Shown here piece after piece: positions 3 through 62,490 of a stretch of DNA of 64,000 bases. This DNA is from Woeseiaceae bacterium (lineage in GTDB: Bacteria; Pseudomonadota; Gammaproteobacteria; Steroidobacterales; Woeseiaceae). The stretch is from the NCBI GenBank assembly GCA_028822065.1, contig JAPKEL010000003.1, positions 1-64,000 of the forward strand, written 5' to 3'. The position numbers and the translations under genes were made by a program. How positions within the stretch are numbered: position 1 is the stretch's first letter; the number at the start of each line of letters is the position of its first letter. The notes beneath the pieces are model-generated. The model made no database searches. It was given only the letters and a program-made list of their open reading frames with translations, and was not told the DNA's origin.

Positions 3-488
3 AATGAGGCGAACTTACAAGGACCAATTCAAAATAAAATGCAATACGATAAAGTGGTGGGCCTCTACGAAGACGCCAAAGAAAAGGGTGGTAAAGTACT
101 TTGTGGCGGCGATATCCCTGATGAACCCGGCTATTTTATGTCATACACTCTGATGACAAATGTTACTGATGGTATGCGGATTGTTGATGAAGAACAGTTT
201 GGCCCATTGTTGCCGATAATAAAATATTCAGATATTAATGAGGTTCTCGAAAAAGCGAATGGTCTAGAAACAGGACTTGGTGGATCAGTTTGGTCTTCAG
301 ACATTGAAAGAGCTGCAGAGATTGCTGCAAAGCTTGAATGTGGCACGGCATGGGTTAATCAGCATGGGCCTATCGCACCAAACGTTCCATTTGGTGGTGT
401 GAAGTGCTCTGGTATAGGGGTTGAATTCGCTGAAGAGGGACTGCATGAATACACTACCATTCAGGTAGTAAACGTCGCCAAGGCATAA
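3..488 (+). CDS. Aldehyde dehydrogenase, C-terminal part (5' end outside window)
   Basis: The reading frame is open from base 3, so the first in-frame ATG (39) is internal and the gene starts before the window. The visible ~161 residues are the C-terminal part of an NAD(P)-dependent aldehyde dehydrogenase: GPIQNKMQYDKV, the EEQFGP loop (coenzyme-site Glu) and VPFGGVKCSGIG are family hallmarks. The catalytic Cys and general-base Glu lie upstream and cannot be checked. Substrate is unknown. It is followed after 4 nt by an Nramp-like transporter and then a ThDP enzyme, so oxidation of an aldehyde made by that ThDP enzyme is a reasonable inference; aminobutyraldehyde is another option given the polyamine genes nearby. 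Confidence 0.93.
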   Translation, partial: NEANLQGPIQNKMQYDKVVGLYEDAKEKGGKVLCGGDIPDEPGYFMSYTLMTNVTDGMRIVDEEQFGPLLPIIKYSDINEVLEKANGLETGLGGSVWSSDIERAAEIAAKLECGTAWVNQHGPIAPNVPFGGVKCSGIGVEFAEEGLHEYTTIQVVNVAKA

Positions 489-492
489 TTCG

Positions 493-1740
493 ATGCCTAA
501 TATATTAGCTCGGTTAGGTCCGGGATTGATGCTGGCTGCGGTGGGCGTGGGTGTTTCTCATCTGGTTTTTTCGACACAAGCCGGAGCAAATTACGGACTA
601 TCCTTGTTGTGGTTTATTGTCGCGGTGACTTTAATTAAGTACCCTGCATTTCGTTTTGCTGTTGATTACGCCAATGCTACAGGGGAAAGTTTGGTTACAG
701 CTTATGGAGAAATCAGCAAGTTAGCTTTGGTTTGGTTGATGGCTGGTTTTATTGTTGATACATTTATTGCTACCAGTGCTGTTTCTATGGTCACAGCAGG
801 ATTATTTATCAGTATCTTCGATGTACCTTTTAGTGCCCCTCAAGTTGCTATTGCTATCACACTTGTATCAGCGTTGATATTGATGAATGGTCAATATGCA
901 AAAGCAGAAAGAATCGTTAAGGTCTTGGTGGTAGTTTTCTCGATATTGACATTGGTAGCACTGTTTTTTTCATTACCTCTTTTGGGGAGTAATGATCGAG
1001 CTGTATTTGCAGATTTAGATTTAACTTCTGATCTCCCTTTATTAATCTTTGTCATAGCAATTGCAGGCTGGATGCCAATGCCAACTAATGGGGCAATATT
1101 ATTTTCCAGTTGGGTTTCTGAAAAAAGAAAAATTAGCGGTGAGAAATTTAAAGATGAAGATGCCTTGAGAGATTTTAAGCTGGGTTATTTTTTATGTCTA
1201 TTTTTAGCGATTTGTTTTGTTGTTCTTGGCGCAGCCGTATTATTTCAAACCGGCAGGACGATCCCCTTGAAAGCGGCTGATTTTGCAGCAGAATTATTTA
1301 GTGTATTTACAGAAACCATTGGCGATTGGTCATATCCGATTATCGCTAGTGCTGGGTTGGCTGTTATGTGGTCCACACAAATTGCTCTGATGGATGTGAT
1401 GCCTCGACTTACTGACCGATTATCGGGGCTTATGATGGGTCGCCCTAAAGATTCACCTGATCGCTATAAGTTATTTTCAGCGATTCAAGTGCTGGGTATC
1501 ATAATAATCTTATTATTTTTTGTTGAATCTAATAGCTTTATAGGTTTTATTTTTTTTGCAACCAGCGTCGGATTGATTGCCGCCCCAACTATCGGTTATT
1601 ATAACTATTTAGCAATAACCTCAGATAAAATACCCGCTAAGTACCGACCAAAAACCTCAATGGTTATTTGGAATTGGGCGTGTATTTTTATTATGGCTGT
1701 ATTTGCGATTGGATTTGTTTATACAAGGATTGTGATGTGA
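493..1740 (+). CDS. Nramp-fold transporter lacking canonical metal-binding motifs
   Basis: A 415-aa inner-membrane protein with about 11 hydrophobic segments. The opening GPGLMLAAVGVG and the QAGANYGLSLLW stretch match the start of Nramp (SLC11) transporters. In true Nramps TM1 carries DPGN and TM6 carries MPH; here TM1 reads GVGVSHLV and TM6 reads GWMPMPTNGA, so the metal-coordinating Asp, Asn, Met and His pattern is not preserved. It probably belongs to an Nramp-related subgroup with another substrate. AAGG at 480-483 is a suitable ribosome site. It sits between the aldehyde dehydrogenase and the ThDP enzyme, whose GTG start overlaps its stop, which suggests import of that pathway's substrate (inference). 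Confidence 0.85.
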   Translation: MPNILARLGPGLMLAAVGVGVSHLVFSTQAGANYGLSLLWFIVAVTLIKYPAFRFAVDYANATGESLVTAYGEISKLALVWLMAGFIVDTFIATSAVSMVTAGLFISIFDVPFSAPQVAIAITLVSALILMNGQYAKAERIVKVLVVVFSILTLVALFFSLPLLGSNDRAVFADLDLTSDLPLLIFVIAIAGWMPMPTNGAILFSSWVSEKRKISGEKFKDEDALRDFKLGYFLCLFLAICFVVLGAAVLFQTGRTIPLKAADFAAELFSVFTETIGDWSYPIIASAGLAVMWSTQIALMDVMPRLTDRLSGLMMGRPKDSPDRYKLFSAIQVLGIIIILLFFVESNSFIGFIFFATSVGLIAAPTIGYYNYLAITSDKIPAKYRPKTSMVIWNWACIFIMAVFAIGFVYTRIVM

Positions 1741-3401
1741 CTAATTTAAAAAAGATGACAGGTGGAGCAGCAATGGTGGAAGCTGCAAAAGCCAATGGTA
1801 TTGATACTGTTTTTGGATTACCGGGCGCACAAACATACCCCATATTTGATGCCTTACATGGAACCCCTGAGATTAAAACAGTAATCACTCGACATGAGCA
1901 GGGTGCTGCTTACATGGCCTATGGTTATGCAAAAGCGACAGGAAAACCAGGTGCATTTTCAGTGGTACCAGGACCGGGGGTACTAAATGCTTCCGCCGCT
2001 TTATGTACTGCTGCTGGAGGTAATGTACCTCTATTGTGTATGACCGGCCAAGTTCCATCTCAATTTCTTGGTTCGGGAAGGGGTCACTTACATGAATTAT
2101 CCGATCAAGCAGGAACGCTTCGAACAATTATTAAATATGCCGATCGTATCGATAATCCAGTGAATTCATTTAAACAGATGAATGAGGCTTTCAGGGTAAT
2201 GCTGAGTGATCGCCCTGGACCTGTTTCGCTAGAAATGTGTTGGGATACGATGGGTCAAGAATGGGAAGTTGAGGTTGAAGCTGGAAATTCACAAATAGAC
2301 TTACCAGAGATTAATGAAGATAGCTTAGATGCTGCTGCTGATTTAATAGCCAATTCCAAAAATATTATGATTATGTCCGGGAGTGGAGCTCAGCATGCCA
2401 GTAAAGAGGTTAGAGAGTTATCATCCACGTTGGGCGCAACTGCGACTTCACTGAGAAGCGGTCGGGGCGTGGTAAGTGAAGACAGTGATTGGGGCGTATC
2501 TTCGGCTGCGGCGATGGAATTATGGGAAAGTACCGATCTATTAATTGGCATTGGTTCTCGACTCGAAATGCAATATATGCGTTGGCTATCGATGATGGAA
2601 TATTACGACAAACCACCTGAAAATGGACCTAAATTAATTAGGATAGATGTTGATCCAAAAGAAATGATTCGCTTAAAGCCTCATGTTGGCGTTGTGGCAG
2701 ATGCAAAGGAAGGTGTCAGCGCATTAATTGAGAAAGTTATCAAACGTGGCTTTAATAAGGGCGATCTTGACCGCGTTAAATCAGCAAAAGTAAAAGCACG
2801 CAATGATATTCAGGAAATACAACCACAGTTGGCTTATTTGGATGTGATTCGAGAAGTGTTACCTAGAGATGGGTTTTTTGTTGAAGAATTATGTCAAGCA
2901 GGTTTTACTTCCTATTATGGCTTTCCTATCTATGAGCCAAGAACATATGTTTCGTCTGGATTTCAAGGAACATTGGGATTTGGGTTTCCGACAGCACTTG
3001 GAGTCAAGGTTGCCATGCCTGATCGAGCTGTAGTATCGATCATCGGTGATGGTGGGTTCTTATTTGCAATGTCAGAGATGGCCTCTGCTGTTCAGCATAA
3101 TATTGGTTTAGTTACTATTGTTTTTAATAACTCGTCATTTGGTAATGTTAGACGAGATCAGCAAGAACGATTCAATTCAAATTTGATTGGTGCTGATTTA
3201 GTCAATCCAAATTTTTTGAAAATTAGTGAAGCGTTTGGGGTGGATGGTTACAGTATCTCTCAACCTACTGAGCTAAAACCGATCTTGAGTAAAGCAATAG
3301 AAAATAATCGTCCTGCTATTATTGAGGTTAAGATTGAAAGAGGCACGGAAGTTAGTCCTTGGAAATATATACATAAAGCCGTAGTTGCTCCAGATAGTTA
3401 A
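1737..3401 (+). CDS. Thiamine-diphosphate-dependent enzyme, acetolactate synthase/decarboxylase family
   Basis: A 554-aa protein with the three-domain layout of the ALS/benzoylformate decarboxylase family. The N-terminal PYR domain has the ThDP-activating Glu in ITRHEQGAAYMAYGYA (about residue 54); the C-terminal PP domain has GDGGFLFAMSE (about 437) and FNNSSFGN for Mg-diphosphate binding. I chose the GTG at 1737: it overlaps the upstream stop (GTGA) and has AAGGA at 1725-1729, whereas longer versions run into the transporter gene. A later ATG at 1755 is possible. The position beside an aldehyde dehydrogenase fits a 2-oxo-acid decarboxylase or C-C lyase, but the substrate is not readable from sequence; no small ALS subunit is present. 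Confidence 0.88.
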   Translation: MTNLKKMTGGAAMVEAAKANGIDTVFGLPGAQTYPIFDALHGTPEIKTVITRHEQGAAYMAYGYAKATGKPGAFSVVPGPGVLNASAALCTAAGGNVPLLCMTGQVPSQFLGSGRGHLHELSDQAGTLRTIIKYADRIDNPVNSFKQMNEAFRVMLSDRPGPVSLEMCWDTMGQEWEVEVEAGNSQIDLPEINEDSLDAAADLIANSKNIMIMSGSGAQHASKEVRELSSTLGATATSLRSGRGVVSEDSDWGVSSAAAMELWESTDLLIGIGSRLEMQYMRWLSMMEYYDKPPENGPKLIRIDVDPKEMIRLKPHVGVVADAKEGVSALIEKVIKRGFNKGDLDRVKSAKVKARNDIQEIQPQLAYLDVIREVLPRDGFFVEELCQAGFTSYYGFPIYEPRTYVSSGFQGTLGFGFPTALGVKVAMPDRAVVSIIGDGGFLFAMSEMASAVQHNIGLVTIVFNNSSFGNVRRDQQERFNSNLIGADLVNPNFLKISEAFGVDGYSISQPTELKPILSKAIENNRPAIIEVKIERGTEVSPWKYIHKAVVAPDS

Positions 3402-3427: not shown

Positions 3428-3763
3428 ATGCGTAATAGGCATTTTATGTGGTTTTTCTTACTGATTTTGATTACTTTTTTGTTGTTTGATATCCGGTTAA
3501 ATTTCAATATGGTATTGCCTTCGACTATTGAAATTATAGATGAAAATCAAGAGTTACTTTATCAAGATTGCATCAAAAATGAAGACAGTATTATTCATCA
3601 AGAGACATTTTCATTAATCGATAATCCCGATGTTCAACGCGAAGTATTGATTACAAAAAAAGAGCGTGCAGCAAGAAATTGTCGAGCTAAATTTCCGTTA
3701 TTTTATAAATCTGAAGATCAAACTTTTCAATTTAATTTAATTGATTTTGAATATAAGTATTAA
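3428..3763 (+). CDS. Small membrane-anchored protein, function unknown
   Basis: An 111-aa protein I do not recognise. Residues 7-22 form one strongly hydrophobic segment after a basic start (MRNRH), predicting a signal anchor with a mostly acidic, two-cysteine domain of ~85 residues outside the cytoplasm (DCIKNE and RNCRAK could form a disulfide). It lies 26 nt after the ThDP enzyme and 39 nt before the SpdH-like gene on the same strand, so it may be cotranscribed with either. The ribosome site is weak. It could be a local accessory subunit or an orphan. Confidence 0.6.
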   Translation: MRNRHFMWFFLLILITFLLFDIRLNFNMVLPSTIEIIDENQELLYQDCIKNEDSIIHQETFSLIDNPDVQREVLITKKERAARNCRAKFPLFYKSEDQTFQFNLIDFEYKY

Positions 3764-3802
3764 TTCCTTGTAATATAAAGCTTGATGAAAAAAGGGGGGT
3801 GC

Positions 3803-5644
3803 ATGAAGGATAATATTTCAAGACGAGATTTTTTAAACGGTTCACAAATTGCAATTGGTGCGTCTTTAATATCGCCATGGTCCAATATATTGGGTTCTAC
3901 CAATCCATCATTTAAACTCGCGAGTGATTATTATCCCCCTAACTTGACTGGTTTAAGAGGAAGTCACAATGGCTCATGGGAGGTAATGCATTCACGAGTT
4001 TTAGGTAAAAAATGGCCTCAAACAGGTCATGAAGAAACGTATGATTTGGTAGTTGTAGGTGCTGGTATCAGTGGCCTATCAGCAGCATATTTTTATAAGA
4101 AAAATCATCCCAATGCAAAAATTTTGATTCTTGATAATCATGATGACTTTGGTGGGCATGCAAAGCGTAATGAATTCACTGTGAATGGTGAAATGAGAAT
4201 CGGTTACGGTGGCACAGAGACTATCGATACGCCTTCTTCATACAGTAACGAGGCAAAAGTGTTAATTCGTGAGATTGGAATAGAAGTAGATAAATTTTAT
4301 GAAGCTTTTGATCAATCCTTATATCCTTCAATGGGACTAGGCAAAGGCATTGTCTTTGATAACAAATCTTTTGATGAGCAAAAACTGGTGATTGGGTATA
4401 ACAAGATCCCATGGAAAGAATTTGCAGATAAAACCCCCATGAGTGATCAAGCAAAACAAGATTTAATTAGAGTTTGGACAGAGGAGAAGGATTATTTACC
4501 TGGGTTATCTAACGAGGAGAAATATAAATTACTTCAGAAGGTAAGTTATTATGATTTTCTAAAGGATTACGCAAAAGTTGATCAGCAGGTATTAGAGATT
4601 TTTAGACGCTGGGGTATGAGTTTTTGGTGTGTTGGCATAGATGAGATTCCCTCAACTTCAATACAAAGTTACGACGGTGGCATGCCAGGATTGAATCATA
4701 CACTAAAGAGAAGTGGCTATAGGGGAGATGAGCCCTATATATTTCACTTTCCAGACGGTAATGCTTCTGTTGCACGCTTATTAGTGAGGAAATTGATTCC
4801 TGAGGCAGTTCCAGGTTCGACCATGGAAGATGTGGTATTAGCAAAAGTGAATTATGATTTATTGGATGATATCACTGGCTCTTCAACTAAAATTCGACTT
4901 AACTCAACAGCGGTCAATGTGGCACATAAAAATAATTCTTCAGTTGTTGATGTGACCTATGTTCGTAATCATCAAACTCATACAATTAGAGCAGATAAAT
5001 GTATTCTGGCTTGTTATAACAGCGCCATTCCTTATTTATGTGATGAATTACCGAAAAAACAAATTGAGGGCCTTGAATATAACGTCAAAATACCTTTGAC
5101 TTATACTAAGGTTATGATTCCGAATTGGAGGGCATTTGCCGAACAAGGATTGGATTTTGTCTATTATACCAATGATTTCTTTAAGCAAGTAGAGCTCGAT
5201 TATCCAGTTTCACTGGGTGACTATAAATTCAATAGTTCACCTAATGATCCAATGGTTCTACATATGTGTCACTCTCATCATTCAGTTGATATTAAAGGGC
5301 CGGATCAATGGCGAGAAGGCAGAAGGCAATTACTTTCAACACCTTTCTCTGTTTTTGAGGGTCATGTTAAAAATCAATTGGATCAGGCGTTAGGTAATGC
5401 TGGGTTTGATGCGGACAGAGATATTAATGCAATTACTGTGAATCGATGGCCGCATGGTTATTCTTATTCAAATGATTTGATATGGGAGCCTCATTGGCCT
5501 AATGAAGAAAGTAAACCCTGGGTAAAAGGAAGGCAGCAATTTGGACGTATAGCCATAGCCAATTCAGATGCCGGCGCCTCTGCTGATACCAATGCGGCAA
5601 TAACTCATGGTATTCGTGCGGCTAATGAAGTTTTATCTCTATAG
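3803..5644 (+). CDS. SpdH-like (spermidine dehydrogenase family) Tat-exported flavoprotein
   Basis: A 613-aa protein. SRRDFLNGSQIAIG at the N-terminus is a twin-arginine signal. An FAD-binding Rossmann motif follows near residue 90 (VVVGAGISGLSAAYF) with FGGHAKRNEF shortly after. The YYPPNLTGLRGSHNGSWE segment is characteristic of bacterial SpdH proteins, which are about 620 aa and cleave spermidine to 1,3-diaminopropane and 4-aminobutanal. The start at 3803 is preferred because AAAGGGGGG (3791-3799) precedes it and it places the Tat motif near the N-terminus; an in-frame TTG at 3782 is also open. A partial paralogue lies at 62491. Activity on spermidine is inferred from family membership. 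Confidence 0.8.
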   Translation: MKDNISRRDFLNGSQIAIGASLISPWSNILGSTNPSFKLASDYYPPNLTGLRGSHNGSWEVMHSRVLGKKWPQTGHEETYDLVVVGAGISGLSAAYFYKKNHPNAKILILDNHDDFGGHAKRNEFTVNGEMRIGYGGTETIDTPSSYSNEAKVLIREIGIEVDKFYEAFDQSLYPSMGLGKGIVFDNKSFDEQKLVIGYNKIPWKEFADKTPMSDQAKQDLIRVWTEEKDYLPGLSNEEKYKLLQKVSYYDFLKDYAKVDQQVLEIFRRWGMSFWCVGIDEIPSTSIQSYDGGMPGLNHTLKRSGYRGDEPYIFHFPDGNASVARLLVRKLIPEAVPGSTMEDVVLAKVNYDLLDDITGSSTKIRLNSTAVNVAHKNNSSVVDVTYVRNHQTHTIRADKCILACYNSAIPYLCDELPKKQIEGLEYNVKIPLTYTKVMIPNWRAFAEQGLDFVYYTNDFFKQVELDYPVSLGDYKFNSSPNDPMVLHMCHSHHSVDIKGPDQWREGRRQLLSTPFSVFEGHVKNQLDQALGNAGFDADRDINAITVNRWPHGYSYSNDLIWEPHWPNEESKPWVKGRQQFGRIAIANSDAGASADTNAAITHGIRAANEVLSL

Positions 5645-22195: not shown

Positions 22196-22936
22196 GTGAA
22201 CAAGAAGAAAGATCAAAAACAATTGATTGGCGGCGTTATAGGTGGAATGGGCCCCTTAGCGACAGTGGATTTTATGTCAAGAGTGATCTTGCTGAATCCC
22301 ATTCAGACTGAAAAAGATCACGTCCATCTTATCGTGGATCAAAACCCACATGTGCCTAACAGACAGATTAAAACATCCATACAAAGAAATGAAATTGCCT
22401 TATTGTTGGCTGAAAGCGCCAAAAAACTTGAAACAGCTGGCGCAAATTTTATCGTAATGCCATGTAACACAGCGCATATGTTTACTGATGAGATAAAAAA
22501 AGTGATCGATATTCCTCTGCTACATATTGTCGAGGAAGCAGTCGCTGAGATATCAAAAAATCACTCTAATAAGATGACCGTTGGAATAATGGCGACATCT
22601 GCTTGTTTGGAATCTAAGATTTATCAGGAAGGTTTATCAAGCGCAAATAGAAATTTCATTGTTCCTGATGAGCATTTTCAAGACGAATGTATGGGTATTA
22701 TTTTTTCTATAAAAGATGGAAAAGAGATTAAACCCATGAAAAGTAGGATGGTAAAAGTGGCAGAACATTTGATTGCTAGGGGCGCTGAGATTATCATAGC
22801 AGGCTGTACAGAGATTCCGCTAATTATAAAAGATAATGATATTGAAGTTCCTTTAATATCATCGACTGAAATTCTTGCTCTCAGAACTATAGAGTTTGCT
22901 TCCGGCATGGAATTAGAAAGAAATATCATTGAATAA
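22196..22936 (+). CDS. Aspartate/glutamate racemase family protein
   Basis: A 246-aa cofactor-independent racemase of the Asp/Glu/hydantoin family. The N-terminal GGVIGGMGPLAT loop is diagnostic; the two catalytic cysteines sit in MPCNTAH and AGCTEIPLI, both present. GTG at 22196 is used because later ATGs would cut the first beta strand; the ribosome site is poor. It probably interconverts L- and D-aspartate or glutamate in the cytoplasm. It is 10 nt upstream of a D-cysteine-desulfhydrase-like gene, suggesting a small D-amino-acid unit. Confidence 0.88.
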   Translation: MNKKKDQKQLIGGVIGGMGPLATVDFMSRVILLNPIQTEKDHVHLIVDQNPHVPNRQIKTSIQRNEIALLLAESAKKLETAGANFIVMPCNTAHMFTDEIKKVIDIPLLHIVEEAVAEISKNHSNKMTVGIMATSACLESKIYQEGLSSANRNFIVPDEHFQDECMGIIFSIKDGKEIKPMKSRMVKVAEHLIARGAEIIIAGCTEIPLIIKDNDIEVPLISSTEILALRTIEFASGMELERNIIE

Positions 22937-22946
22937 GGATTAATTT

Positions 22947-23948
22947 ATGTTGTTATCCAGGTTTCCTAGAGTATCACTTGCCCATCTCCCCACTCCTTTG
23001 GAGCATTTACCTCGACTTTCAAAGCACTTGAATGGCCCTGAGATTTATGTGAAAAGGGATGATTGCACAGGACTTGGTACCGGCGGAAATAAAACTCGAA
23101 AATTAGAATTTCTGATTGCCGATGCACAGAAAAATAAAGCGGATGTCATCATCACGCAAGGTGCGGTGCAATCAAATCATGCTCGTCAGACCGCTGCTGC
23201 AGCTGCCAAATTAGGTTTTCAGTGTGAATTGGTGTTTGAAAAAAGAGTGACCGATGCCTCTTCAGCCTATATGGAATCAGGAAATGTATTTTTAGATCAG
23301 CTATTTGGGGCAAACATTCGTGAAGTGGCGAAAGGCTCCGATATGAATAATGAAATGGAGAAAGTTGCTAATGAGATAAGAAATAACGGTCAAATTCCAT
23401 ATATTATTCCTGGTGGAGGCTCTAATTCTATAGGAGCTTTGGGTTATGTTGATTGCGTGCTTGAATTAATTACTCAAGCTAATGAACAAAATTTAGTTAT
23501 TGACAGTATCGTGCATGCTACAGGCAGCGCAGGAACACAAGCAGGAATTGTGGTTGGCGCGAAAGCGATGAATTGCAATATCCCTATTTTGGGCATTGGT
23601 GTAAATGCTTCACAAGAACTACAGGAGGAAAAAGTATATCAACTAGCCTGTGAGACCAGTGATTATATGGGCCTTTCAGGATTAGTAAAAAGAGAGGATG
23701 TAGTGGCAAATTGTGATTATGTTGGTGATGGTTATGGAATTCCAACGAAAGGAATGAATGATGCGATTCTGTTACTTGCTAGACTGGAGGGTTTATTGTT
23801 TGATCCAGTATACAGTGGCAAGGGTCTTGCTGGAATGATTGATCTTATTGAGCAAGGTTACTTTAAAGAGCGACGTAATATTGTATTTATACATACTGGG
23901 GGAGCTGCTGGGTTATTTGCCTATCATGACATCCTGAGTACAAAATAA
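22947..23948 (+). CDS. D-cysteine desulfhydrase/ACC deaminase-family PLP enzyme
   Basis: A 333-aa fold-type II PLP enzyme. [37 protein letters not shown] (PLP Lys in GGNKTRK, split here as YVKRDDCTG and [12 protein letters not shown]) and [17 protein letters not shown] are typical of the DcyD family, which covers D-cysteine desulfhydrase, ACC deaminase and L-cysteate sulfo-lyase (CuyA). [11 protein letters not shown] closes the PLP phosphate site. Sequence alone does not separate these activities; a marine heterotroph could use either. It is cotranscribed with the racemase. Confidence 0.85.
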
Positions 23949-51446: not shown

Positions 51447-52838
51447 TCACACTGAGCGCAAATACCAACTGTAATCTATATCGCTGATATTATTATTAAA
51501 TTCCGATTCCTCGAAGCGCCTGTTAGCAATAAAAGTCTTGCAGAACTCTCCACCCAGGTAGTTTGGTAGTATTTTGCTGTCTTCAAATTCATCGATTGCT
51601 TTGTTCCAACGATTAGGGATTTCTTGGTTGAGTGATATTACCTCAAATTCTTGGATCATTTTTCCAGGATTGCATTGATGCGTTATCCCATAGTGAACTC
51701 CAGAAAGTATCGCAGCCGCTACAAGATATGGATTCGCATCTGCACCAGAAACTCGATGCTCAAACCTTAGATTTTTGGCATCTGAAATTGGAATTCGAAG
51801 TGATACATTCCGATGATTAGCGCCCCAATTTGGCTCAACAGGTGCAAACATTTCTGGCCTTAGTCTTCTGTATGAATTGGCATTGGGAGCAAAAATTGCA
51901 GTTGCTGCACCCATCGTTTCCTTGAGTCCGCCGATGGCATACCTTAGATTGTCAGAATAAGGTGGTTGGGCCCGTTCTTTTTTATTTTGTGAGAAATAAT
52001 TGTTACCATCCACATCAATAAAGCTCATGTGCATATGCAATCCAGAACCAGATTCTTCTGCAAAAGGCTTGGCCATGAAGCAAGCTACAAAATCATGTTG
52101 ACGAGCTATAGCTTTGATAGCTCTTTTTAAAAGCATGGCATGATCACAAGCAAGTAAAGGATCGTCAATATGGTGAAGATTGATTTCAAATTGACCTGGT
52201 GCGTATTCTGAAATGGCAGTTCCAGCCGGAATATTTTGTTTTTCACAGGCCGCATAGAGATCGTTTAAAAAGCCTTCAATATCCCATAGATCGTCAGGAT
52301 GATAGCATTGAGGCCCGGGTTGCGGTCTGCCAATACCTGGAATTAAAGAGGTTTTTGGAGTAGGTCTGTCGCTATTAGCATCTAGCAGATAAAATTCCAG
52401 TTCTGCTGCCATGACAACTGTTGGTACTAATTCTTCAAGCTTTGATAAGGTTTTTTGTAATACGGCTCTGGGTTCAGCAAAAAATGGTTCATTAGCGTCA
52501 TTGACAAAGGAGAAAAGTGCTTGTGCTGAAGGTTTTTTTGCCCATGGAATAGTCGCTAAACTACCAGCAATTATATGTGCACCTGTATCCGGGTCACCGT
52601 CCTCTGCAGACCATTTTATATCTGGGATGGTTTGCCCTAGTATATCTAGGAAAACTGTACTGCCAGGCATAGAGAAGCCATTATTGAAAATACTTTCAAA
52701 TTCATTAGAGCGGATACGCTTTCCACGAATGACACCATTTATGTCACCCATTATGATTTCCATTTCCTGTGTATCAGGAAATTTTTTCATAAATTTATGT
52801 AATTCATCTAAATTAGATTTTTTTGATATCTTAGACAT
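51447..52838 (-). CDS. Glutamine-synthetase-like gamma-glutamylpolyamine synthetase (PuuA-type)
   Basis: A 463-aa protein of the GlnA superfamily, PuuA/PauA branch. Nucleotide and glutamate site pieces: AAELEFYLLD, QFEINLHHID, GSGLHMHMSF, NSYRRLRPEMF, NWGANHRNVSLRIP and RFEHRVSGADANPY. It lacks the adenylylation region of true GlnA. It would link glutamate to an amine (putrescine, a polyamine or ethanolamine) with ATP. It is divergent from the IclR gene, with the double-palindrome site between. The second paralogue at 57353 differs, suggesting different amines (inference). Confidence 0.87.
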   Translation of the reverse strand: MSKISKKSNLDELHKFMKKFPDTQEMEIIMGDINGVIRGKRIRSNEFESIFNNGFSMPGSTVFLDILGQTIPDIKWSAEDGDPDTGAHIIAGSLATIPWAKKPSAQALFSFVNDANEPFFAEPRAVLQKTLSKLEELVPTVVMAAELEFYLLDANSDRPTPKTSLIPGIGRPQPGPQCYHPDDLWDIEGFLNDLYAACEKQNIPAGTAISEYAPGQFEINLHHIDDPLLACDHAMLLKRAIKAIARQHDFVACFMAKPFAEESGSGLHMHMSFIDVDGNNYFSQNKKERAQPPYSDNLRYAIGGLKETMGAATAIFAPNANSYRRLRPEMFAPVEPNWGANHRNVSLRIPISDAKNLRFEHRVSGADANPYLVAAAILSGVHYGITHQCNPGKMIQEFEVISLNQEIPNRWNKAIDEFEDSKILPNYLGGEFCKTFIANRRFEESEFNNNISDIDYSWYLRSV

Positions 52839-52916
52839 ATGAAGCTCAAGTAATTAATTAATGATTTAATTGTAACAGAATATAATATTGGATCAGGTCA
52901 GTTATAGTGTGTATTA

Positions 52917-52947
52917 TCATAATATGAAATCCATAATCATATTATGA
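52917..52947. promoter_or_regulatory. Two-palindrome operator, copy 1 (between PuuA-like and IclR genes)
   Basis: TCATAATATGA (52917-52927) and its reverse complement TCATATTATGA (52937-52947) are separated by 9 nt, 20 bp from start to start. Each half is itself nearly palindromic. The site is 7 bp before the IclR start and 79 bp before the divergent synthetase start. The same arrangement recurs at 58685. Likely target of the IclR-family regulator (inference). Confidence 0.75.
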
Positions 52948-52954
52948 GCTAAAA

Positions 52955-53710
52955 ATGAGAGAAAAAACTGCCCCAAAAGGAGCTCAGGCTGCTCTTCGTG
53001 CTATTCGTTTGCTTAAGTTATTTACCATTGAGAAATCTGAGCTATCTTTAACTCAAGTGAGTGTTGGTGCAAACCTCAATAAAACCACGGTTCATCGTTT
53101 ATTACGTGCACTCGAGAGCGAGAGTTTAGTTCAACGAAACTCAATTACTGGGCGATACAGTCTTGGAGCGGGACTTATGGCCTTGGGTGTGCAAGCATTA
53201 TCAAGCAGTGATCTGAGAAGAAGAGCGCGACCTATTCTAAAGTTATTAGCCAGAGATACGGGAGAAACTGCACAGTTGGAGGTGCCTGTTCATGATGGAA
53301 TGTTGATTTTAGATGAGGTCACGGGTCGGCATGTGGTGACAGCAACTGGTAACATTGGCACTCATTGGCCCATGCATGCAACTTCGAGTGGTAAAGCCTA
53401 TATGGCTTTTGATACAAGCATGCATGATCAACTTCCAGAGACGTTTCCCAGTCTTACAAAAAATACCATAACAAATAAAGTTTTGATGAAAGCTGAAATT
53501 AGCCGAATTTTAAAACGAGGTTTTTCTGAAAGTGTTGATGAACTAGAGCCAGGATATAGTTGTGTTGGTATTGCTGTATTCGATGCTCTCGGCAATATTC
53601 AGGGCGCCCTATCTATAGGAGGCCCATCTCATCGCATGACAAAGGAACGGAGAATGGAGATAGGAACAGCATTGAAAAAAGCTGCAGGCCGTCTCAGTCC
53701 AGAGTATTAA
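52955..53710 (+). CDS. IclR-family transcriptional regulator
   Basis: A 251-aa regulator. The N-terminal winged helix (about residues 9-75: GAQAALRAIRLLKLF, TTVHRLLRALES, GRYSLGAGLMALG) precedes an IclR effector domain (EVTGRHVVTATG, HATSSGKAYMAF, YSCVGIAVFDALG, GGPSHRM). IclR proteins bind as tetramers to paired palindromes, which fits the 11-9-11 operator directly upstream, so it probably controls itself, the divergent synthetase and the operon at 58801. The effector is likely an amine or its breakdown product. Confidence 0.92.
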   Translation: MREKTAPKGAQAALRAIRLLKLFTIEKSELSLTQVSVGANLNKTTVHRLLRALESESLVQRNSITGRYSLGAGLMALGVQALSSSDLRRRARPILKLLARDTGETAQLEVPVHDGMLILDEVTGRHVVTATGNIGTHWPMHATSSGKAYMAFDTSMHDQLPETFPSLTKNTITNKVLMKAEISRILKRGFSESVDELEPGYSCVGIAVFDALGNIQGALSIGGPSHRMTKERRMEIGTALKKAAGRLSPEY

Positions 53711-53815
53711 CTTTTTAGCTTTGCGTGCTAGTATCTAATTTGATTGAGTCAGTTTGATTCTTTTAATTATTGAGAATCCAAAATAACGGGGATTAACATC
53801 AAAAGATATTTATTT

Positions 53816-55645
53816 TTGCTGATTGCTTTAATGGCGCCGGCTTCTTCATATGCACTTGACGTTAAATTATCTCAGGTTGCTTTAACCCATGTTGATACAG
53901 AGGTAAATATATCTAATGCTGGCGCTTTTCAAAGAATAGATGTTTATTTTGGTACACAAAGAATAAGCGGGACAACGGATGATCTTGGTTATATAGATTT
54001 CAATTTAAAGTTTGATCGACCTGGAAAAAAGAATCTCCACATTGTGCAATCTGGAGCAGAATCTACTGATTATAATCTACGAGTTATTCCGGGTTGGATT
54101 TCAATTGCACCTCCACTACTGGCCATTTTTATTGCGTTAATATTGCGCAATGTTATTCCTGCATTAATTGCGGGTATCTGGTTAGGTGCCACGGCACTTA
54201 GGTCTTTTACACCGATGGGTATTTTTCAAGGGCTCTTGGATGGATTTCAGATTTATGTTGTAAAAGCCCTCTCCAATGAGGATCATGCGGCGATTATATT
54301 ATTTTCAATGATGATTGGTGGCATGGTCGGGATAATAACAAGAAATGGCGGTATGAACAGTATTGTCATGCTCCTGGTCAGTAGGGCAAAAACAGCAATT
54401 GGTGGGCAAGTATCAGTGTGGCTAATGGGCTTGATGATATTTTTTGATGATTATAGCAATACCTTAGTTGTTGGTAATACGGCCAGACCACTTACAGATC
54501 ACCTTAAGATATCTCGAGAAAAATTAGCCTATATAGTTGATTCAACTGCTGCACCTGTCGTTTGTATCGCACTGATTACGACATGGATTGGCTATGAAGT
54601 GGGCTTGATTGATCAAGCGCTTAAGGGTATTCCTGAATTAACTGAACCAGCGTATACGGTTTTCTTGCATTCCATACCTTATAGTTTTTATCCTATATTA
54701 GCGATTATCTTTGTTTTCACTGTAGCGAGAACTGGAAAAGATATGGGTCCCATGTACCACGCTGAAGTCAGAGCTCGACAAGGGCAAGTCTCACCAGTCA
54801 ATACATTAGATACACCAGCAATACAAGGTGATAATTTAGAAATGAAAGTTGGTGTAAAAATGCGTGCAATGAATGCATTTATTCCAATATTGGTGCTAAT
54901 TTTCTCTTTATTAGCTGGCCTTTATGTCACAGGTGAGGGCGATTCAATGACAGATATAATTGGATCTGCTGATTCCTATACTGCCATGCTTTGGGCTTCA
55001 TTATTAGGTGCTATGACAGCAGCTATAATGACCATTTCGCAAAAAATATTAACAACTCATGAAACTGTGGACGCATGGTTTGGCGGAGTGCGAGCCATGC
55101 TATTTGCCATGATTATATTGATTTTAGCTTGGGCACTTTCAGACATAAGTATGGCACTTAACACGGCTGATTATTTGGTATCTATTTTGGCTGATTCTTT
55201 GCCTGCTGAAATGGTGCCAGTCACAGTTTTTGTGCTTTCGGCTATTACCGCATTTACGACCGGAACCAGTTGGGGGACTTTAGGTATATTGATGCCGCTT
55301 GTGGTTCCTCTTTGTTGGGCGGTTATGCAAGTTAATGGCATAGCTGATGCCGCTCATATGCATATATTATATTCGGCCATTGCATGTAATCTTGCTGGCG
55401 CGGTTTGGGGGGATCATTGTTCTCCTATCTCTGATACTACGGTGTTGTCTTCAATGGCCAGTGGCTGTGATCATATAGAACATGTAAGAACTCAAATGCC
55501 GTATGCATTATTAGTGGGCTCGGTAGCGATAGCGGTTGGTACCATTCCAGGTGCTTACGGGGTACCACCTATTGTTTCAATTATTGCAGGAGCTCTTATT
55601 TTAGCTGCAGTTTTGGGGTATTTTGGGCGTAAAGCCGACCAGTAA
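53816..55645 (+). CDS. NhaC-family transporter with exported N-terminal domain
   Basis: A ~609-aa protein: signal peptide, an ~80-residue extracytoplasmic beta-rich domain (LSQVALTHVDTEVN to about residue 95), then an NhaC-family membrane domain (FFDDYSNTLVVGNTARP, FTTGTSWGTLGIL, WGDHCSPISDTTVLS). Shares HIEHVRTQMPYALLVG with the paralogue at 8185. The TTG at 53816 is the first usual start, but it leaves a signal peptide without basic residues and has no ribosome site; an in-frame ATC at 53798, six bases after CGGGG, would give MKRYLFLLIALMAP. It is in the polyamine cluster; amine transport is a possibility. Confidence 0.85.
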   Translation: MLIALMAPASSYALDVKLSQVALTHVDTEVNISNAGAFQRIDVYFGTQRISGTTDDLGYIDFNLKFDRPGKKNLHIVQSGAESTDYNLRVIPGWISIAPPLLAIFIALILRNVIPALIAGIWLGATALRSFTPMGIFQGLLDGFQIYVVKALSNEDHAAIILFSMMIGGMVGIITRNGGMNSIVMLLVSRAKTAIGGQVSVWLMGLMIFFDDYSNTLVVGNTARPLTDHLKISREKLAYIVDSTAAPVVCIALITTWIGYEVGLIDQALKGIPELTEPAYTVFLHSIPYSFYPILAIIFVFTVARTGKDMGPMYHAEVRARQGQVSPVNTLDTPAIQGDNLEMKVGVKMRAMNAFIPILVLIFSLLAGLYVTGEGDSMTDIIGSADSYTAMLWASLLGAMTAAIMTISQKILTTHETVDAWFGGVRAMLFAMIILILAWALSDISMALNTADYLVSILADSLPAEMVPVTVFVLSAITAFTTGTSWGTLGILMPLVVPLCWAVMQVNGIADAAHMHILYSAIACNLAGAVWGDHCSPISDTTVLSSMASGCDHIEHVRTQMPYALLVGSVAIAVGTIPGAYGVPPIVSIIAGALILAAVLGYFGRKADQ

Positions 55646-55667
55646 AATAAGTTCGTTTTTTCATGAT

Positions 55668-55679
55668 GTGATATATCAC
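55668..55679. promoter_or_regulatory. 12-bp perfect palindrome upstream of the methyltransferase gene
   Basis: GTGATATATCAC reads the same on both strands, about 68 bp upstream of the gene at 55747. It is not the 52917/58685 motif. A short AT-rich palindrome may be by chance. Confidence 0.25.
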
Positions 55680-55746
55680 TGAAGATTGTATTTTCTTGAG
55701 GTAGAATTGTCATTAATAGTAATTATTTAATTATAGGAGAGTTTGG

Positions 55747-56493
55747 ATGTTTCGACTAAGTTTGGTTATTCTTGGAATTTTAATAAGCAATGTCTCGTTT
55801 GCACAAAGTAATGCAATTGATGACAAGATCAATGCAGCACTTGCATCAGAAATAAGAACCGCAGCTGAAAAAGCAAGAGATCGTAATAGAAAACCACTTG
55901 AAACATTGAATTTCTTTCAGCTTAAAGATGATATGCGTGTGCTTGAATTGGTTCCTAGCGGAGGCTGGTACACAAAATTATTGGCACCGACCCTTAAAGA
56001 TAACGGCGAATATTATGTAGCAATCTGGACGGATCGATTAAAAGTTGGTTTATTGTCAGAAGATGGTTTTGGGCATGTAAATGTTGTGGATGGTATCAAT
56101 CCATCGAGCAGCGGTGTAGGCCGATTAAATACAATTAAATCTTTTTCATTAGGCTTAAGTAATTTGGATTTAGTGGTTACCTTCAGAAATATGCATAATT
56201 TTGATGTAGCTGGCCGTAATGCGATTAATCAGGCGACTTTTGATGCATTAAAATCAGGGGGCCTTTATGGGGTTATCGATCATACGCGACGACACATGCA
56301 GCCAATGACTAATGAAGTATGGCGAAGAGCAGACCCGATTCAAATAACAAAAGAATTACTGGATATTGGCTTTGAACTTGAAGCTTATAACGACCTTCAT
56401 TATAGACCTGATGATGAGTTGCGTTATGAGGTAGGAAGGAAGTCGGTGACTGGTAATACCGATCGATTTACGATGCTCTTTAAGAAACCATAA
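55747..56493 (+). CDS. Exported SAM-methyltransferase-like protein (COG4798 type)
   Basis: A 248-aa protein with a signal peptide (MFRLSLVILGILISNVSFAQ) and a Rossmann methyltransferase-like domain: VLELVPSGGWYTKLLAP corresponds to the SAM-binding motif I, followed by VVTFRNMHNF and GLYGVIDHTRR. Related exported predicted methyltransferases are common in proteobacteria, with unknown targets. SAM is not known to be abundant in the periplasm, so the role may be altered. GGAG precedes the ATG at good distance. It lies between an NhaC-like and puuD gene. Confidence 0.8.
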   Translation: MFRLSLVILGILISNVSFAQSNAIDDKINAALASEIRTAAEKARDRNRKPLETLNFFQLKDDMRVLELVPSGGWYTKLLAPTLKDNGEYYVAIWTDRLKVGLLSEDGFGHVNVVDGINPSSSGVGRLNTIKSFSLGLSNLDLVVTFRNMHNFDVAGRNAINQATFDALKSGGLYGVIDHTRRHMQPMTNEVWRRADPIQITKELLDIGFELEAYNDLHYRPDDELRYEVGRKSVTGNTDRFTMLFKKP

Positions 56494-56558
56494 AAAATAA
56501 GAATTGATTGTCAAGCAACGAGGCCTTAGTGACTTATAAAGTACAGCTAAGATAAAGC

Positions 56559-57311
56559 ATGAGCGAAAAACCAGTTATTGCAGTACCTGCAGATAGAAGA
56601 CTTATCGGCATTCATCCATTTCATATGGTTGGCGAGAAATACATAACTGCCCTCAAAGATGCTGCCGAAGGGCTGCCATGGATGATTCCAGCTACTGGAG
56701 ATGACGGCATGCTTGATGATATTTTTAATAAGGTTGATGGTCTATTTTTAACCGGAAGTATCTCGGATATTGAACCTCATCATTATCAAGGAAATCCAAG
56801 CCGACCAGGAACATTGCATGATCCTGAGAGAGATGCCACGGTATTTCCACTGGCGCGTAAGGCATTGGATATAGGGATGCCTATTTTTGCTGTATGTCGA
56901 GGTTTTCAGGAATTAAATGTCTTGCTGGGTGGTACTTTGCATCAGCAAATACATGAGGTTGAAGAGTGCTTAGATCACCGTGAAGATAAGAATGATCTTA
57001 TTGAGAAAGGGTATGGTCCGGCACATACAATATCTATAAAGAAGGACAGTATGTTAAGTAGTTTTACTGATCAAGACATCGTGAGTGTCAATTCATTGCA
57101 TGGTCAGGGGGTTGATCGAATTGCTGCAGGCGTCAATATAGAAGCGGTAGCCGAAGATGGTGTTATTGAGGCCTTTAAAGTTACTGAAACGAGTGGCTTC
57201 GCCTATGCTGTACAATGGCATCCTGAATGGAAAGTTCTGGAAAACCCTCTATCACTTTCAATATTTAGGGCATTCGGCGATGCTTGTCGTGAGTATGCGC
57301 AAAAAAAATGA
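56559..57311 (+). CDS. puuD: Gamma-glutamyl-gamma-aminobutyrate hydrolase PuuD
   Basis: A 250-aa class I amidotransferase-like hydrolase of peptidase family C26. The nucleophile C113 is in FAVCRGFQELNVLLGGTLHQ (as AVCRGFQEL) and the His-Glu pair in QWHPEW; VNSLHGQGVD is characteristic of PuuD. It splits gamma-glutamyl-GABA to glutamate and GABA, the last step of the Puu route. E. coli PuuD is 254 aa. It is followed 41 nt on by a PuuA-like synthetase, which is the first step of the same route. Confidence 0.93.
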   Translation: MSEKPVIAVPADRRLIGIHPFHMVGEKYITALKDAAEGLPWMIPATGDDGMLDDIFNKVDGLFLTGSISDIEPHHYQGNPSRPGTLHDPERDATVFPLARKALDIGMPIFAVCRGFQELNVLLGGTLHQQIHEVEECLDHREDKNDLIEKGYGPAHTISIKKDSMLSSFTDQDIVSVNSLHGQGVDRIAAGVNIEAVAEDGVIEAFKVTETSGFAYAVQWHPEWKVLENPLSLSIFRAFGDACREYAQKK

Positions 57312-57352
57312 TAATAATTTTAATTAACGTGCTTTAGCACATTGGGTCAATA

Positions 57353-58684
57353 GTGAGTAAAAAAGATATTTTTAATAATTGGTTTAAGGAACATAAAATT
57401 GAAGATGTTGAGGTTTTGTTGCCAGACATGGCAGGCGCCGCGCGTGGCAAAATAATTCCTGCGACAAGTTTCGGTGAAGGTGAAATGAAAATGCCAGAAG
57501 CCATATTCGGTCAAACAATTTCCGGTGATTATTTTGAGAGCGATGACAATGTCGAAGATCGAGATATGTTTTTGGTTCCTGATCCAGATACTCTTTGTTC
57601 AGTCCCATGGATGGAGCTTCCTACAGCATCGGTTATATTTGATGGCTTTACAAAAGATGGGAATGAGGTTTTAACTTCGCCAAGGAGGGTGTTGCAGAAT
57701 GTATTAGCACTTTATAGTGAGCAAGAATGGAGCCCAGTGGTTGCTCCAGAAGCGGAATTCTATTTACTTAATCCATCCACTGATATAAATGTAGAAATAG
57801 AGCCGCCTGAGGGACGGTTAGGCCGTACGGATACATCAAAGCAGCCTTATAGTTTGGATGCTATGAATAATTTTGATCCCTTCATTAATCAAGTTTATGA
57901 ATTTAGTGAGGCACAAGGTATTCGTATAGATAATCTCTCACAGGAAATGGGTCCCGCTCAACTAGAGATTAATTTTGTTCACGGTGATGCGTTATCACTG
58001 GCTGATCAGGTCTTTCGCTTTAAGCGGACTGTTCGCGAAGTTGCAATTATGCATGGAATGCATGCTACTTTCATGGCCAGACCTATAACCGGTGAGGCTG
58101 GCAGTGCCTTACATATTCATCAAAGTATCCTTAATATGAATGGGGATAATATTTTTTCGAATAAGGATGGCACGCAAACCGACTTATTTACGCATTATAT
58201 CGGCGGTTTGCAAAAATACATGCCAGAAGCACTTCTTATCTTTGCACCTTATGCAAATTCATACCGACGTTTCTTAAGTTATTGGTCTTCTCCGGTTAAT
58301 CTAGAGTGGGCTGTGGATAATCGAAGCGTAGGTTTGAGAGTGCCAGATTGTGACCCACAGAATCGTCGTGTTGAAAATCGCTTGGCTGGGTCGGACGTTA
58401 ATCCTTATTTAGTTTTGGCAGCAACTTTGGCTTGCGGTTATATGGGTATGGCTGAAAAAATAATGCCTCGAGACTCTATTGAAGGGAGTGCATATGACCT
58501 CCCATTTGATTTATATCGCAATATGTATGCATCTATTGATGCTTTTTCATCAAGTAAAGCTATGCGTACAATGCTAGGCGACTCATTTGTTGATATGTAT
58601 TCAGGTATTAAGCAAAAAGAACACGAGCAATTTCAAGAAATCATCACTCCTTGGGAAAGAGAAGTACTGATGTTGAACGTTTAA
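57353..58684 (+). CDS. puuA: Gamma-glutamylputrescine synthetase-like (second PuuA paralogue)
   Basis: A 443-aa glutamine-synthetase-like enzyme that glutamylates putrescine (or similar amine) with ATP. Motifs: LLPDMAGAARGKIIP, APEAEFYLL, EMGPAQLEINF, GSALHIHQSI, NSYRRFLSYWSS, VDNRSVGLRVP and NRLAGSDVNPYL. GTG at 57353 is the start; the ribosome site is weak (TTGGGT). It is 41 nt after puuD. It is clearly diverged from the synthetase at 51447 (for instance WSSPVNLEW against MFAPVEPNW), so the two may act on different amines. Confidence 0.88.
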   Translation: MSKKDIFNNWFKEHKIEDVEVLLPDMAGAARGKIIPATSFGEGEMKMPEAIFGQTISGDYFESDDNVEDRDMFLVPDPDTLCSVPWMELPTASVIFDGFTKDGNEVLTSPRRVLQNVLALYSEQEWSPVVAPEAEFYLLNPSTDINVEIEPPEGRLGRTDTSKQPYSLDAMNNFDPFINQVYEFSEAQGIRIDNLSQEMGPAQLEINFVHGDALSLADQVFRFKRTVREVAIMHGMHATFMARPITGEAGSALHIHQSILNMNGDNIFSNKDGTQTDLFTHYIGGLQKYMPEALLIFAPYANSYRRFLSYWSSPVNLEWAVDNRSVGLRVPDCDPQNRRVENRLAGSDVNPYLVLAATLACGYMGMAEKIMPRDSIEGSAYDLPFDLYRNMYASIDAFSSSKAMRTMLGDSFVDMYSGIKQKEHEQFQEIITPWEREVLMLNV

Positions 58685-58715
58685 TCATAATATGATATTA
58701 AATTTCATATTATGA
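58685..58715. promoter_or_regulatory. Two-palindrome operator, copy 2 (upstream of aminotransferase operon)
   Basis: TCATAATATGA (58685-58695) and TCATATTATGA (58705-58715) with a 9-nt spacer, identical in both halves and in spacing to the site at 52917. It begins on the base after the puuA stop and is 85 bp upstream of the aminotransferase ATG, so it likely governs the operon to the right. Confidence 0.75.
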
Positions 58716-58719
58716 AATA

Positions 58720-58734
58720 TTACATGACATGTAA
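58720..58734. promoter_or_regulatory. 15-bp palindrome beside operator copy 2
   Basis: TTACATG-A-CATGTAA is a perfect inverted repeat with one central base, four bases after the copy-2 site. It is absent from the 52839-52954 region, so it may be a binding site for a second regulator of the aminotransferase operon. Confidence 0.45.
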
Positions 58735-58800
58735 GATTAATATTGTCTAATATAAGACTTTAGATTTGTCGTTAAAAAGAAATTCATTAAGGAGTGGGGT

Positions 58801-60174: not shown

Positions 60175-60195
60175 TTTAACGATATAGAAAATAAT

Positions 60196-61170
60196 ATGAA
60201 TAAAAAAAACAGTAAAAATATGGATCGACCAGAATTGTATGGCATGGTTTACGAACCCACTTATTCTGGTGCGACTACATTTCTTCGTCGCACAGCATCT
60301 CGAGATTTGAATGGGGTAGATCTTGTGATCACTGGTATTCCTTTGGATACAGCAACGACGAATCGGCCCGGAGCAAGATTTGGACCGCGCGCTGTCCGCC
60401 TAGCTTCCACGATTATGGCTTGGGAAAAACCTTATGGCCTTGATTTTAATCCGGTTGATCGCTTAGCGATGGTTGATTATGGCGATTGTCATTTTGATTT
60501 TGGAAAGCCAGAAGCCGCAGTAAATGAGATGATAGATCATATTTCCTCAATCATTGATCAGGGTCCAGGTGTCTTAACGATTGGTGGTGATCATTTTGTC
60601 TCATACCCTGTGCTTAAAGCCTATGCAAAAAAATACAAAGAACCGATTTCATTGATTCATTTTGACGCTCATACCGATACTTGGGAGGCTGGTGAAGGTC
60701 AAGATCCTGAAGAAGAGAATGGCAGAATAGATCATGGCACTATGTTTTATCATGCAGTTAAAGAGGGTATTGTTGACCCCAAGAATTCAGTACAAATAGG
60801 AATTCGAACTGAAAATCCAGACACTATGGGTTTTAATATCTTAGACGCACCTTGGGTGCACAAGAATGGGATTGAGCAGGTCATTCAAAAGACGCTTGAG
60901 ATAGTTGGCAATAAGCCGGTTTATATGACTTTTGATATTGATTGCCTTGACCCAAGTTTTGCACCAGGGACAGGTACTCCAGTATGTGGAGGTTTAACTT
61001 CTCATCAGGCAATGAGTATTATCAGAGGGCTCAGCGGAATAAATTTAATTGGAATGGATGTGGTAGAAGTAGCTCCTGCTTATGATGTAGGTGAGATTAC
61101 CGCTCTTGCAGCGGCTCATATCGCCATGGAGATGGTGTCTATCTATGCTTCTAAACCTGAATTTAAATAA
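60196..61170 (+). CDS. Ureohydrolase: agmatinase/guanidinobutyrase family
   Basis: A 324-aa binuclear-manganese enzyme of the arginase family. Metal ligands: H133 in GGDHFVSYP, D157, H159, D161 in HFDAHTDTWE, and D247, D249 in TFDIDCLDPSFAPGTG. SpeB agmatinase is 306 aa. It would release urea from agmatine to give putrescine, or from 4-guanidinobutyrate to give GABA; the sequence does not decide. Its position between an aminotransferase and PuuB points to a role in supplying the Puu route. Ribosome site is weak. Confidence 0.9.
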   Translation: MNKKNSKNMDRPELYGMVYEPTYSGATTFLRRTASRDLNGVDLVITGIPLDTATTNRPGARFGPRAVRLASTIMAWEKPYGLDFNPVDRLAMVDYGDCHFDFGKPEAAVNEMIDHISSIIDQGPGVLTIGGDHFVSYPVLKAYAKKYKEPISLIHFDAHTDTWEAGEGQDPEEENGRIDHGTMFYHAVKEGIVDPKNSVQIGIRTENPDTMGFNILDAPWVHKNGIEQVIQKTLEIVGNKPVYMTFDIDCLDPSFAPGTGTPVCGGLTSHQAMSIIRGLSGINLIGMDVVEVAPAYDVGEITALAAAHIAMEMVSIYASKPEFK

Positions 61171-61182
61171 TGGATTTTTAAA

Positions 61183-62469: not shown

Positions 62470-62490
62470 GCCTAGTAGCGTTATATTTAA

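Follow-up and report, generated by a model that had tools for sequence, protein, structure and literature searches.

Nramp-related proteins with altered motifs

Diverse, paraphyletic Nramp-related proteins without both the DPGN and the MPH motif have already been described (available sections of PMC12873925), so the lack of these motifs is not unusual in itself. According to the accessible parts of the work on Slc11 outgroups, Nramp-related and orphan proteins diverge at the metal site and are without most proton-pathway residues (PMC9606685, PMC10606218). The NRMT proteins carry the motif DxxG-TxxA/T, in which the Asp is kept, and with their altered sites still carry Mg2+ and Mn2+ (PMC8806188, portion available). 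Two further relatives are encoded in catabolic operons. In C. glutamicum, deletion of pxpT, which encodes an NRAMP-family protein, abolishes growth on 5-oxoproline, and the genetic evidence for organic-acid uptake in this group is that for PxpT (PMC13274462, accessible text). In B. subtilis, the NRAMP-family protein YcsG is encoded in a 5-oxoprolinase operon, and Mn import by it has been claimed on genetic and cell-Mn evidence (PMC10448178, available part). One family has thus been given opposite readings and the function of YcsG is disputed; Mn import by a protein from a catabolic operon also means that catabolic synteny can mislead.

The locus described here encodes another PF01566-type protein in a catabolic operon. 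A literature search that covered the operon and the transport of organic acids by PF01566 proteins found no paper on the operon or on the subfamily named GxSH below, which is no proof of absence. The new element is a defined GxSH subfamily tied by repeated synteny to 2-oxo- and 2-hydroxy-acid enzymes.

A Woeseiaceae gene for a carrier of predicted Nramp fold

We analyzed a window of 64,000 nucleotides from a Woeseiaceae bacterium (GCA_028822065.1, contig JAPKEL010000003.1, forward strand). The window starts at the first base of its contig, and the genome is 1.96 Mb in size and 93.65% complete. The carrier gene is located at 493..1740 on the + strand, has an ATG start, and encodes 415 aa. It is kept in 9 out of 9 genomes of the genus, with 74-100% identity and no internal stop, so the open reading frame is not a chance one. 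The protein matched PF01566 with 56.4 bits, above the Pfam gathering cut-off of 29.8, and NF037982 with 58.3 bits (cut-off 50), where the best stretch covers residues 9-196 only. It fell far under the cut-offs of the MntH models (38.6 of 430 bits and 23.8 of 272.5 bits). A phage-family origin was rejected, as there was no PHROG match.

A phmmer search of the single carrier protein against PDB sequences found nothing at E<=1, while the profile of the GxSH clade had one match, the weak one to EleNRMT (7qia, E 0.025). We modeled the carrier with ColabFold, using 13 window and locus proteins as input; the model is of modest quality (pLDDT 58.5, pTM 0.59), with pLDDT <50 at TM1 and TM6. Foldseek placed this model closest to DraNramp 6d91 (E 1.5e-7, TM 0.64/0.66), followed by EleNRMT 7qia (E 1.7e-7). 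In the VIA comparison, Nramps were at the top (9f6p, Z 30.0, rmsd 3.5, 365 aligned residues), and amino-acid carriers, which belong to the same superfamily, followed at a short distance (8wnt, Z 25.9, rmsd 3.7, 360 aligned). The predicted fold is that of LeuT/APC proteins of the Nramp type; because phmmer found no PDB relative, this assignment rests on the weak clade-profile match and on the model.

Loss of metal-ligand and proton-pathway residues

To compare the ligand positions, we used an alignment of 16 sequences and one of 98 distinct sequences, comprising DPGN-type MntH, two PxpA-adjacent carriers, and other Nramp-related groups. Counts for the GxSH clade refer to 72 aligned sequences, of which 27 are close and 45 distant members. 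The TM1 segment in the place of DPGN is located at 547..570 (+ strand, codons 19-26, VGVSHLVF). In the alignment of 98 sequences, its residues G20-V21-S22-H23 align onto D56-P57-G58-N59, which we take to be the DPGN motif in DraNramp numbering. G20, S22, and H23 are each constant in 72 out of 72 clade sequences, and the Asp and Asn ligands are absent from all 72. The TM6 segment in the place of MPH is located at 1066..1095 (+ strand, codons 192-201, GWMPMPTNGA). G192, which alone is invariant across the 16 aligned sequences, anchors a gapless register that sets W193/M194/P195/M196/P197/T198 against A/T/V/M/P/H, so that M196-P197 falls on the Met-Pro of MPH and T198 takes the position of the His. 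This His is replaced in 72 out of 72 sequences. At the soft-ligand position of M196, 25 out of 27 close members have Met, but all 45 distant ones have Thr, Ser, Ala, Ile, or Asn. In TM3, the window sequence VDTFIATSAVSMV aligned with LAIIACDLAEVIG of MntH, giving T94 in place of Asp and V97 in place of Glu, with no acids at the proton-pathway columns.

An earlier note on this DNA, made from the sequence alone, had placed GVGVSHLV in TM1 and MPMPTNGA in TM6 at the metal-ligand positions and described the protein as having neither DPGN nor MPH. The sequence reads as given there, and the loss of DPGN holds throughout the clade. The loss of MPH holds for the His, but the Met-Pro pair can still be aligned, so that calling the motif wholly gone is too strong. 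The ligand loss was seen against MntH sequences, and the fold of the model matches 6d91 and 9f6p.

Four other positions set the clade apart: H23, K49, D301, and R305 are constant in all 72 sequences, where the three MntH sequences have N/A/L/I, and K49 and R305 sit in predicted helices. We infer that the invariant H23, K49, and R305 could serve an anionic substrate. The carrier thus resembles canonical Slc11/MntH in fold, in PF01566 membership, and, among close members, in the TM6 Met-Pro, but differs in being without the DPGN Asp and Asn, the TM6 His, and the TM3 acids. Like the NRMT Mg2+ transporters (EleNRMT, 7qia), it is Nramp-related and has no proton pathway. However, the position of the NRMT Asp is Gly in 72 out of 72 sequences, and an assignment of the clade to NRMT was rejected because this Asp of the DxxG-TxxA/T motif is absent.

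The GxSH clade and its distribution

We constructed a phylogenetic tree with FastTree, rooted by choice on MntH sequences. By sequence, the carrier belongs to a GxSH clade that is distinct from MntH, from PxpA-adjacent carriers, and from the other Nramp-related groups. The tree recovered 71 GxSH tips in one clade with a support of 0.88; this clade also takes in L080, with a GGAN motif, and L030. Three members, L030, L060, and the truncated L044, have an adjoining gene for a thiamine diphosphate (ThDP) enzyme, and in L030 and L060 the leader reads IGPGT. Adjacency to a ThDP gene is recurrent among the Woeseiaceae members.

With the carrier as query, matches at E<=1e-3 were found in 47 out of 107 genomes of the family, part of them from other Nramp groups; the remaining 60 had no match at all. 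A clear second set of relatives (27-37% identity, E<1e-35) was found in 17 of the 368 other Gammaproteobacterial genomes drawn, with one more broken copy in G309, and the other Nramp-type proteins of these genomes reached E>1e-12 only. Full-length matches with 28-33% identity were also found in plasmid-collection records from Pseudoalteromonas, Photobacterium, and Neisseria. Many plasmid-collection records of such PF01566 proteins are labelled 'Nramp family divalent metal transporter'.

PxpT and YcsG differ from the carrier in that their genes lie beside pxpABC, whereas this genome has 0 matches to PF03746 (pxpA). An identification of the carrier as PxpT was rejected, as the genome is without pxpA. 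The PxpA-adjacent carriers L169 and L166 (Klebsiella and Lactiplantibacillus), which were chosen by adjacency to pxpA as candidate PxpT orthologues, have 14% identity and GPGF/VGGY at the ligand sites. An ORF scan of nine Gammaproteobacterial PxpA loci found none with a recognisable PF01566 gene. Plasmid pxpA loci (L169, L166, L170, L165, and L168) vary in their transporter, which is an NRAMP-family, MFS, or TRAP protein depending on the locus.

A well-supported operon with a ThDP enzyme and an aldehyde dehydrogenase

The contig begins within a gene for an aldehyde dehydrogenase (ALDH; 3..488, + strand), of which the C-terminal 161 aa are present (PF00171, 160.8 bits). The full-length copy in the related locus L012 has 471 aa with GQTC and LELGG stretches, and its best NCBIfam match is PRK13473, with 407 bits under a cut-off of 615. 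The ALDH stop codon (486-488) lies 4 nt ahead of the carrier ATG. Downstream of the carrier is a gene for a ThDP enzyme of the PRK08266 subfamily (1737..3401, + strand; NF006122, 717.5 bits against a cut-off of 571) with TPP_enzyme N, M, and C domains. Its frame is open from 1668, and the likelier start is the GTG at 1737, which overlaps the TGA of the carrier gene; in L020 and L062, from other genera, the ThDP frame starts at the third position of the codon that precedes the carrier stop. The arrangement agrees with the earlier description of a carrier gene that follows an ALDH gene and overlaps a ThDP gene.

The relatives of the ThDP enzyme in the PDB are of the AHAS type, and the description of the NF006122 (PRK08266) model is just 'hypothetical protein'. 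The enzyme is likely a 2-oxo acid decarboxylase. Its second-best NCBIfam match is PRK07524, for which AruI is presumably the gene name. At 351 bits this match is below the cut-off of 500, and the enzyme was therefore rejected as the 2-ketoarginine decarboxylase AruI.

An orthologue of the ThDP enzyme with at least 63% identity was found in 20 of the 107 Woeseiaceae genomes, in all 20 within 60 bp of a carrier gene. Conversely, carriers with at least 55% identity were found in 22 genomes, with the ThDP gene adjoining in 20. The ALDH gene is directly upstream in 14 of the 20 genomes with the carrier-ThDP pair. That the carrier, ThDP enzyme, and ALDH form a conserved operon is well supported; the 20 genomes share this synteny by descent, so the independent events are few.

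Two genes that follow are of uncertain membership in the unit. A small ORF of 111 aa (3428..3763, + strand) has no family match and has homologues in L018 and L021. The next gene encodes an SpdH-like flavoprotein (3782..5644, + strand), whose 87% identical homologue in L012 matched SpdH in the PDB (7d9i, 479.6 bits); spermidine dehydrogenase is the sole PDB relative found for that homologue. The SpdH-like gene follows in several relatives, but it was not found in L019 and L023, where 6-8 kb of downstream sequence were read, and because it is missing in some loci, we dropped it as a fixed part of the unit.

Elsewhere in the window, a cysteate degradation pair is encoded by adjoining genes at 22196-23945, with CuyB as the cysteate racemase (238 bits, cut-off 190) and CuyA as the D-cysteate sulfo-lyase (529 bits, cut-off 450). 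A polyamine catabolism block at 51450-63999 contains two glutamine-synthetase-like (PuuA-type) genes and genes for a PuuD-like hydrolase, a PRK07480 aminotransferase, an agmatinase, and an AmaA-like oxidase, as well as a second gene with an SpdH-like N-terminus.

Recurrent acid-enzyme neighbours in Woeseiaceae

We examined the neighbours of 37 out of 38 Woeseiaceae clade loci with E<1e-30 (G102 was left out). In 29 of the 37, a gene for a ThDP enzyme, an FAA hydrolase, or an FMN/FAD 2-hydroxyacid dehydrogenase is adjacent or in the same run, a tally in which the enzyme classes were picked after the genes had been seen and the loci are non-independent, sharing synteny by descent. The ThDP enzyme accounts for 21 adjacent cases and G019, the FAA hydrolase for 4, all beside tier-2 Woeseiaceae carriers, and the FMN/FAD 2-hydroxyacid dehydrogenase for G061, G048, and a second G019 locus. 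Among the remaining eight loci, the neighbour is a PLP decarboxylase in G014, a TonB receptor in G016 and G017, and TauE in G044 and G096, while in G040, G105, and G088 no telling neighbour was recognised. TauE/SafE genes lie directly upstream of carriers in L036, L037, L040, and L041 (51-54% identity), some with sulfotransferase genes downstream.

Three distant carriers suggest a more specific chemistry. In G019, a carrier with 31% identity is part of a same-strand run of sulfatase, carrier, carboxymuconolactone-decarboxylase family (CMD), SDR, ALDH, and ThDP genes, and the PDB matches of this ThDP enzyme are benzoylformate decarboxylases in all 48 rows. In G061, the carrier gene starts 10 bp after a gene of the FMN 2-hydroxyacid oxidase family and overlaps a GlcD-type gene; among the PDB rows of the FMN enzyme, mandelate dehydrogenase and the oxidases for lactate, 4-hydroxymandelate, and hydroxyacids come first. 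In G033, a carrier with 38% identity follows a PRK08266 ThDP gene, with the gene order reversed. The enzyme classes of mandelate-type pathways (2-hydroxyacid dehydrogenase, benzoylformate decarboxylase, and ALDH) therefore recur beside GxSH carriers. The operon in the window differs in that its ThDP enzyme is of PRK08266 and not a benzoylformate decarboxylase, and no hydroxyacid dehydrogenase adjoins.

Elsewhere, PRK08266-like genes at ~41-57% identity were found with aminotransferase and ALDH genes (L174), with an aminotransferase gene (L194 and L195), with genes for an FAA hydrolase, a glyoxalase-fold protein, and an ALDH (L192), and with genes for a sulfatase and a DUF819 membrane protein unrelated to the carrier (L175 and L177). 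The DUF819 gene (L175:8473-9618; also in L176 and L177) adjoins the PRK08266-like ThDP gene, where it apparently occupies the position of the Nramp-like carrier. Its place beside the ThDP and sulfatase genes suggests the replacement of one transporter by another, and the DUF819 protein is a possible transporter for the same substrate. A divergent sulfatase was present in 12 of the 17 genomes read over a longer stretch (L012:4758-6422 and homologues). Its N-terminus resembles a signal peptide, and the three copies compared have the motif CGPTR, not CSPSR.

Among loci of other groups, a ThDP or ALDH neighbour was found in 0 out of 14 GAGD, 0 out of 3 MntH, and 0 out of 7 true GPGT loci, where the counts are of loci and some are two copies of one genome. 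Outside Woeseiaceae, none of the 8 neighbours of distant carriers that were tested was an acid-catabolic enzyme, and neither were two neighbours of Woeseiaceae carriers (L054 and L055). Among these 10, the matches were to accA, Omp85, an alginate-export porin, an ABC transporter, an outer-membrane barrel, an AraC regulator, TelA, and GNAT, with two having no match. The link with acid catabolism thus fades outside Woeseiaceae, where there are no consistent acid-catabolic neighbours.

Proposed function and competing explanations

Judged by its residues and neighbours, a small organic acid is a more likely substrate of this carrier than a metal. On balance, we favour a secondary transporter in which the metal site is replaced and which probably takes up a small organic acid, with a 2-oxo acid, or a 2-hydroxy or amino precursor, as the likeliest substrate. 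The co-translated ThDP enzyme, acting as a decarboxylase rather than a carboligase, would convert the 2-oxo acid to an aldehyde, which the ALDH would oxidise to a carboxylate. In many relatives, the divergent and presumably secreted sulfatase may first free the substrate outside the cytoplasmic membrane. The earlier note had suggested a 2-oxo-acid import route. The conserved unit and the independent 2-oxo- and 2-hydroxy-acid neighbourhoods speak for that suggestion, while the inward direction, the substrate, and the decarboxylase activity are what we infer.

The carrier might alternatively move another organic solute, such as an amino acid, a polyamine breakdown product, or a sulfonate, or export the pathway product, with the ThDP enzyme and ALDH acting later or elsewhere. 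Several neighbours are consistent with this: the SpdH-like gene downstream and the polyamine block at 51-64 kb, the cysteate genes CuyA/CuyB in the window, the TauE-family gene directly upstream in 4 tier-2 genomes together with the frequent sulfatases, and the PLP decarboxylase adjoining the G014 carrier. APC amino-acid carriers also come near Nramps in the fold comparison (Z 25.9 vs 30.0). However, the ThDP gene is a more constant neighbour than any of these, and the SpdH-like gene is absent downstream in L019 and L023, which leaves this explanation rather unlikely.

We consider it unlikely that the protein is a divalent metal importer (Mn, Mg, or other) with an altered site. In that case, the ion would be bound by H23, M196, and backbone carbonyls, and the adjoining enzymes would depend on the metal or be regulated together with the carrier. 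The genome, searched at 93.65% completeness, has no other match to PF01566, ZIP, or ZnuA families, so the carrier could be its only Mn importer; the Met is kept in most close members and His23 could bind a metal. The altered sites of NRMT still pass Mg2+ and Mn2+ (PMC8806188, portion available), and YcsG is a reported Mn importer in a catabolic operon (PMC10448178, available part). Against this, the Asp and Asn ligands are gone from all 72 sequences and the proton columns of TM3 are without acids, the Met is not conserved across the wider clade, and the invariant K49 and R305 are positive. In addition, the fixed neighbours are organic-acid enzymes, no metal-responsive regulator was matched in the subset of neighbour proteins scanned, and 60 out of 107 genomes of the family do without any match to the carrier.

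If the carrier imported thiamine or one of its precursors for use by the ThDP enzyme, the fixed adjacency of the two genes would be accounted for, but this is highly improbable, as thiamine serves many enzymes, thiamine transporters are as a rule not linked to a single catabolic enzyme, and distant carriers adjoin FMN/FAD enzymes instead.

Implications for the Nramp-related proteins

Beyond organic-acid import by this carrier, we tentatively raise a broader idea, which is possible but doubtful: that the members of the GxSH clade form a separate family of Nramp-fold carriers for 2-hydroxy and 2-oxo acids, in which the TM1 His and a buried Lys and Arg replace the metal ligands. For PF01566 proteins without the Slc11 motifs, of which there are many, the neighbouring enzymes here point to a testable substrate class. 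Organic-acid transport by this clade would correct a common mis-annotation, that of 'Nramp family divalent metal transporter'. A candidate substrate class also opens to direct test which substrates Nramp-related proteins move, and how metal transport came about within a fold that is also that of organic-solute carriers. If true, together with PxpT, organic acids rather than metals would be a common substrate class among 'Nramp-related' proteins, which would suggest that Slc11 metal transport arose inside a group of organic-solute carriers.
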